Below, one piece after another: positions 45,534 through 45,823 of a DNA stretch of 64,000 bases (the stretch's first letter is position 1; each line of letters opens with the position of its first letter). Both the position numbers and the translations under genes were made by a program. The DNA comes from Planosporangium flavigriseum (GTDB lineage: Bacteria; Actinomycetota; Actinomycetes; Mycobacteriales; Micromonosporaceae), in contig NZ_JAATVW010000016.1 in NCBI RefSeq assembly GCF_011947225.1, forward strand, positions 1-64,000. The letters run 5' to 3'. The notes below the pieces were generated by a model. It was given only the letters and a program-made list of their open reading frames with translations. It made no database searches and was not told the DNA's origin.

Positions 45534-45606
45534 TTGAGCTTGCTCCTGCGGTCATGGCGAAAGGGACGATCCGTGAGAGGGGATCGACCGGCTGCGCTCG
45601 GCGCTC

Positions 45607-45693
45607 TTAGGCGGTGGCGCGCGTGCACTCCGCGACGAGGTGCCGGCCGGATGGGGCCTCGTCGCGGCACGGAAGAAGAAGCGCCTGCCACAT
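45607..45693 (-). promoter_or_regulatory. candidate leuA leader peptide with CTT-CTT-CTT leucine codons
   Basis: A 28-codon minus-strand ORF starts MWQALLLPCRDE and ends in TAA at 45607-45609. Codons 5-7 are three consecutive CTT, a leucine codon rare in this GC-rich genome; they cover 45673-45681. A perfect 11-pair hairpin (45630-45640 with 45657-45667) begins five bases downstream, so a ribosome stalled at the Leu codons would cover its first arm. This is the layout of a transcription attenuator for leucine genes. There is no clear ribosome site; the message may be leaderless. The ORF ends 73 bases before leuA. Inferred, not proven. Confidence 0.6.
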
Positions 45694-45716
45694 GACGATT
45701 GACACGGTACATCACG

Positions 45717-45734
45717 CCTGACGTCGACGTCAGG
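45717..45734. promoter_or_regulatory. 18-bp perfect palindrome upstream of the leuA leader
   Basis: CCTGACGTCGACGTCAGG lies 24 bases upstream of the leader ATG. Its position suggests an operator overlapping the leuA promoter. The cognate regulator is not in the window. Confidence 0.5.
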
Positions 45735-45823
45735 GGAACAGCCAATGCTTGTTAGTGACGTACGCCCTGGTCAGGGCGTTCGATCAGGTGTGAAATGGGA
45801 TTGCGGTCCAAATAGTGAGAACA

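Follow-up and report, generated by a model that had tools for sequence, protein, structure and literature searches.

A leucine-codon leader ahead of leuA in Planosporangium flavigriseum, assigned by sequence to the actinobacterial LEU element and a likely translational attenuator

The enterobacterial leu operon attenuator combines a leader peptide carrying Leu codons with alternative RNA folds, an arrangement that is also predicted for the DNA described here. In actinobacteria, the LEU element has been known since 2005, when Seliverstov et al. described it at leuA, and a pseudoknot like it within a single transposase gene, from a genome list that lies outside the Micromonosporaceae (PMC1262725). 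Its mechanism was left open because the published Streptomyces mutants, as they are recounted in that paper, did not fit classical attenuation: mutants of the S. coelicolor leuA leader had some effect, inconsistent with the classical scheme, and a binding protein was deemed likelier, the candidates being orthologues of M. leprae ML1624, which have a helicase domain (PMC1262725). LeuL1 of S. lividans (MRFGLLLLSCRGEGL) is reported to be leaderless and to lack a typical Rho-independent terminator (PMC8079986). The cysteine-responsive uORF attenuators of mycobacterial cys genes, which like the leader studied here have a uORF with a codon run, act by translation attenuation in M. smegmatis, according to the work cited in a later paper (cited in PMC13236596).

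Here we present an analysis of the leuA leader of P. flavigriseum within a window of 64,000 nucleotides (contig NZ_JAATVW010000016.1, positions 1 to 64,000), following an earlier note that had proposed a leucine attenuator at this site. Judged by the text of the 2005 paper, the leader is identified by its sequence as the LEU element, with every feature that can be checked in sequence present. We consider it moderately likely that this LEU element holds a leucine-sensing ORF, probably leaderless, and acts by translational attenuation of leuA. The features of the locus are as follows.

43800..45533, minus: leuA, 2-isopropylmalate synthase, 577 aa (NF002991, TIGR00970)
45538..45548, minus: SD region of leuA, CAGGAGCAAGC, predicted to pair with the Leu codons as the 3' side of the base stem
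45567..45586, minus: accessory hairpin CGATCC/GGATCG, in all four genomes of the genus, overlapping the pseudoknot strand by two bases
45585..45592, minus: downstream strand of the pseudoknot, GCCGGTCG, 3' of P1
45607..45693, minus: leader ORF, 28 codons, MWQALLLPCRDEAPSGRHLVAECTRATA*, read from the sequence and relatives
45630..45640, minus: 3' arm of the P1 hairpin, CCTCGTCGCGG
45642..45649, minus: loop strand of the pseudoknot, CGGCCGGC, in the P1 loop
45657..45667, minus: 5' arm of the P1 hairpin, CCGCGACGAGG
45673..45681, minus: three CTT Leu codons (codons 5-7), proposed to act as sensors and to form the 5' side of the base stem
45704..45709, minus: putative -10 box TACCGT of the leader promoter, from TAnnnT spacing in relatives and the sequence

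Read along the minus strand from 45693 to 45607, the leader runs ATG TGG CAG GCG CTT CTT CTT CCG TGC CGC GAC GAG GCC ... GCC TAA, with TACCGTGTCAATCGTC immediately 5' of its ATG. Both the 28-codon ORF with CTT at codons 5 to 7 and its place directly upstream of leuA, a gene now identified by two protein models, had been described in the earlier note, the ORF correctly to the base. The note had also argued that CTT is disfavoured and that such a run is unlikely to be chance, and this is borne out: CTT makes up 1 of the 51 Leu codons of the window's leuA and 1.9% of the Leu codons across 148 leuA genes, and the leader is kept in relatives. Just 5' of the leader lies an ORF of 252 aa (45824-46582, minus) that has no Pfam or NCBIfam match, and near leuA there is a gene for an aspartate kinase-like amino acid kinase that carries ACT domains (46737-48011, plus).

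The LEU element is nearly universal in its bacterial class. Loci of leuA were taken from the genus (4 genomes), the family (121 genomes) and named genomes (80 loci), and 150 leader loci were read, 110 in a first set, then 39 found by motif and one (L141) by eye; some of the 150 are near-identical or share one genome, and locus statistics are taken over 148 leuA loci. In 150/150, the leader that stands 5' of leuA follows the pattern M..ALLL.CRDEA or a variation on it, and three congeners carry MWQATLLLPCRDEAPSGRHLVAECTRATA and near copies. Loss of the Leu run in close relatives had been set beforehand as a refuting outcome; when this was tested, the run proved to be kept across the class, and the proposal was not refuted. 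Its length ranges from 2 to 5 codons, with 3 codons in 111 of the 148 loci. The final codon is CTT in 143/148 leaders (45673-45675 in the window), and the Leu codons that precede it vary synonymously (CTC, CTT, CTG, TTG). An RNA model, R1, built from 40 sequences, matches 359 of 375 genomes sampled from the class (96%) at E <= 1e-4, a downstream leuA being checked for at part of the matches. The P. flavigriseum genome has one strong copy (E 6.7e-14); its next R1 matches (E 0.003 and 0.02) come without such a leader ORF and are read as chance, and the match at L201 (E 1.8e-5), which lies over a coding region, is probably chance as well. A search of Rfam, at the gathering score and at E up to 5, gave nothing relevant to the leader, the enteric leu attenuator model included. 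Elsewhere in the window, Rfam models match a bacterial small SRP RNA (32045-32139, plus) and a tRNA (26148-26234, plus).

The 11-pair hairpin that the earlier note had seen five bases past the Leu codons is present as stated. This hairpin, P1, has a 16-nt loop in the window, and its first base lies five nt past the last Leu codon. P1 is found at 148/148 loci, and at 128 of them the first base falls exactly 5 nt past the last Leu codon. Among the 40 sequences, 99.1% of cells are paired and five pairs show double changes. There are 23 double-change cells, whereas shuffles give 6.5 (0/500) and slid controls no more than 8. Since the 3' arm of P1 lies past the leader stop codon in 94/148 loci (the stop falls beyond P1 in the other 54/148), the constraint is on the RNA rather than on the protein.

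The Leu codons covary with the SD of leuA, which argues for control of translation initiation rather than for transcription attenuation of the enteric type. With kinship ignored, the duplex of Leu run and SD is stronger between own than between swapped partners, both outside the family (-13.82 vs -11.70 kcal/mol, 0/2000) and inside it (-12.23 vs -11.41 kcal/mol, 1/2000), and upstream control regions show little or no such excess. The duplexes themselves differ in sequence, as in CTCCTTCGTC/GACGAAGGA (L043), CCTCCTGCTT/GAGCAGGAG (L027) and GCTTCTTCTT/GAGAAGAAGC (L085). For the window leader, the fold of lowest energy pairs the Leu run with the leuA SD, at a probability of 0.91, and the predicted accessibility of the SD is 0.05 in the free RNA, 0.21 when a ribosome footprint is masked at the last Leu codon and 0.05 with control masks. 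Over 125 loci, mean SD accessibility is 0.13, and footprint masking raises it to 0.25 for family loci and to 0.33 for those outside, a modest effect computed without the pseudoknot. Against translational attenuation stand the S. coelicolor leader mutants, the Corynebacterium account of leuL as a transcriptional attenuator and two results on folding: in the nested fold the pairing probability of Leu run and SD exceeds 0.5 in only 41% of family loci and 65% of the others, and the z-score of the whole-leader fold is modest (-1.84). The modest z-score would also suit an ORF that lies by chance across a structured promoter, a reading that the class-wide conservation and the covariation contradict and that we regard as extremely improbable.

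Control might instead be exerted on transcription, with the position of the ribosome on the leader deciding whether RNA polymerase terminates before leuA, by an intrinsic or a Rho-dependent route. The leader peptide, the Leu run and the hairpins suit this general scheme, and there are precedents: leuL is presented in a Corynebacterium review as attenuating transcription (PMC8709942), and ilvB1 of Mycobacterium tuberculosis has attenuation with a terminator (PMC13236596). However, a scan of 45400-45900 for intrinsic terminators found no terminator-like site, no T-run of more than 5 separates P1 from leuA at any of the 148 loci, and an SD that covaries with the Leu codons is unneeded for control of transcription. 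We hold termination before leuA to be unlikely, though its Rho-dependent form keeps some weight. Translational attenuation is the level of control that we favour, because there is no terminator, the base stem covaries and the spacing from the Leu codons to P1 is fixed. The earlier proposal of a leucine attenuator ahead of leuA survives as a leucine leader-peptide element, and fits less well as to mechanism, given the missing terminator and the covariation of the Leu codons with the SD.

P1 belongs to a compact pseudoknot element that is already known. The pseudoknot lies within the predicted base stem and in the window has 8 bp, CGGCCGGC pairing with GCCGGTCG. In swap tests that ignored kinship, own partners were the better ones outside the family (0/2000); inside the family they were not, and there the test is uninformative because the sequence hardly varies. 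The repeat CGATCC/GGATCG noted earlier (arms at 45586-45581 and 45572-45567) is present as stated. The genus has it in 4/4 genomes, but across the family this sequence is not generally kept; the repeat forms an accessory hairpin adjoining the pseudoknot rather than the key switch. A general hairpin 3' of the pseudoknot was considered and set aside: relative to mononucleotide shuffles it is enriched outside the family and not inside it.

Seliverstov et al. proposed that a regulatory protein binds the pseudoknot, with the leader peptide auxiliary (PMC1262725). The compact and conserved form of the pseudoknot would suit such a role, as would the published leader mutants, which by the account in that paper lacked classical behaviour (PMC1262725). 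The near-invariant final CTT could likewise mean sequence recognition, as base pairing was rejected as its cause (it pairs with the SD region at a probability of about 0.3). Against protein binding, the earlier Leu codons vary synonymously, and copies of the element before leuB or an orphan gene swap some Leu codons for Val or Ile codons, both of which fit the decoding of branched-chain amino acid codons. A protein-binding pseudoknot as the main device therefore seems to us rather improbable. If translational attenuation is true and the Leu codons serve both as sensor and as anti-SD, codon mutants would act partly through breakage of the base stem; the non-classical behaviour of the S. coelicolor mutants, as far as that paper relates it, would then be expected, because a change of Leu codons may also break the base stem, and the odd Streptomyces result could be explained.

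The window's sequence has no SD site 5' of the leader ORF. The TACCGT box ends 10 nt 5' of the leader ATG, a -35-like CTGACG lies about 18 nt further upstream, and in 133/148 loci a TAnnnT stands 12-20 nt 5' of the leader start codon, mostly at -16 or -15. Because of the missing SD and this spacing, the leader ORF probably has no untranslated 5' stretch or almost none (leaderless translation), in agreement with the earlier note, which had found no ribosome site and suggested a leaderless start. Inside the spacer of the leader promoter there is a perfect palindrome of 18 bp, CCTGACGTCGACGTCAGG (45717-45734); it is absent from the congeners, is the sole perfect copy in the genome and is probably not part of the element.

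In the translational model that we favour, the leuA mRNA would begin at the leader ATG or a few bases 5' of it. When leucine is plentiful, ribosomes would pass the Leu codons and then depart, and the RNA would fold as P1 and the pseudoknot, with the base stem closing CUUCUUCUU (the Leu codons) on AGGAGCAAGC (the leuA SD), so that translation of leuA would be blocked. When leucine is scarce, uncharged tRNA-Leu would stall the ribosome on the Leu codons, where it would cover both these codons and the foot of P1 and prevent the base stem; the SD would be freed, and leuA translated. Both the stalling and the direction of regulation are steps that we infer.

Over 100 class genomes carry two or three R1 matches. 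Among the extra copies read, LEU-like elements with an LLL leader lie directly 5' of leuC (L189, L190, L193, L205, L207), and others lie 5' of leuA paralogues (L192, L194, L213, L216, L218-L220) and of stand-alone LeuA_dimer-like genes, whose proteins resemble the LeuA regulatory domain (L196, L198, L199). For these last, PF08502 gives 26.3 bits at L199 and falls below its cut-off at L198, and all three are hit by an HMM made from LeuA C termini. Further copies are found ahead of leuB (L191, L197, L200, L210, L212), at distances of about 280-410 nt, or 1.6 kb in L212, where leuB is a doubtful direct target. In L191 and L197, leuB is separated from the element by a small ORF that is similar in both (ARQALQESMD). 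The run of some leuB and orphan copies contains Val or Ile codons (ALIL, VVIL, LVVI, LVV). Long duplexes of Leu run and SD occur in L190, L192 and L193, and a swap test of this duplex over 15 pooled leuC, leuA2 and orphan copies was not significant (own -11.56, swapped -11.19). Tentatively, and with rather less than even confidence, we suggest a class-wide device of a leucine regulon in which the codons that sense leucine double as the anti-SD, and a ribosome stalled on a leaderless uORF would unmask the next SD: at leuA nearly everywhere, and in other actinobacteria also at leuC, probably leuB, a second leuA and stand-alone proteins with the leucine-binding domain of LeuA, with Val or Ile sensors in some copies. 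In a literature search that was thin on subscription papers, this wider LEU regulon (leuC, leuB, second leuA, LeuA-domain genes) was unreported. Since the element is matched in 96% of the class genomes sampled, stands before several leucine genes and has no Rfam match, work on it would be informative for leucine control in most actinomycetes, among which are amino-acid producers.

Compared with known systems, the enterobacterial leu attenuator uses a Rho-independent terminator, whereas the leader in the window has no terminator and no Rfam match, and the mycobacterial cys attenuators are unlike it in having Cys codons and a different fold. The leuL of Corynebacterium likewise gives a leader peptide with a Leu run ahead of leuA, MNRANLLLLRRGGSQA being one example, and is unlike in being described as transcriptional attenuation (PMC4046766, PMC5784534, PMC8709942). 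LeuL1 of Streptomyces lividans leuA shares the LLLxCRxE peptide core and the lack of a typical terminator, as well as the leaderless form that is predicted for the window leader, but has 15 codons, and its transcription start is observed whereas that of the window leader is predicted (PMC8079986). Closest is the LEU element of 2005 (PMC1262725), also before leuA, which has an upstream ORF containing consecutive Leu codons, a base stem pairing those codons with the leuA SD (in the window supported by the fold and by duplex covariation), a conserved pseudoknot inside the base stem (a match judged by the paper's text) and no obvious terminator, all as found here. The window leader differs from that description in running on through P1 and in the genus-level accessory hairpin after the pseudoknot. 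New here are the covariation of P1, the covariation of the base stem, the near-invariant final CTT, the placement of the -10 box as suits a leaderless start and the class-wide distribution of the LEU element.
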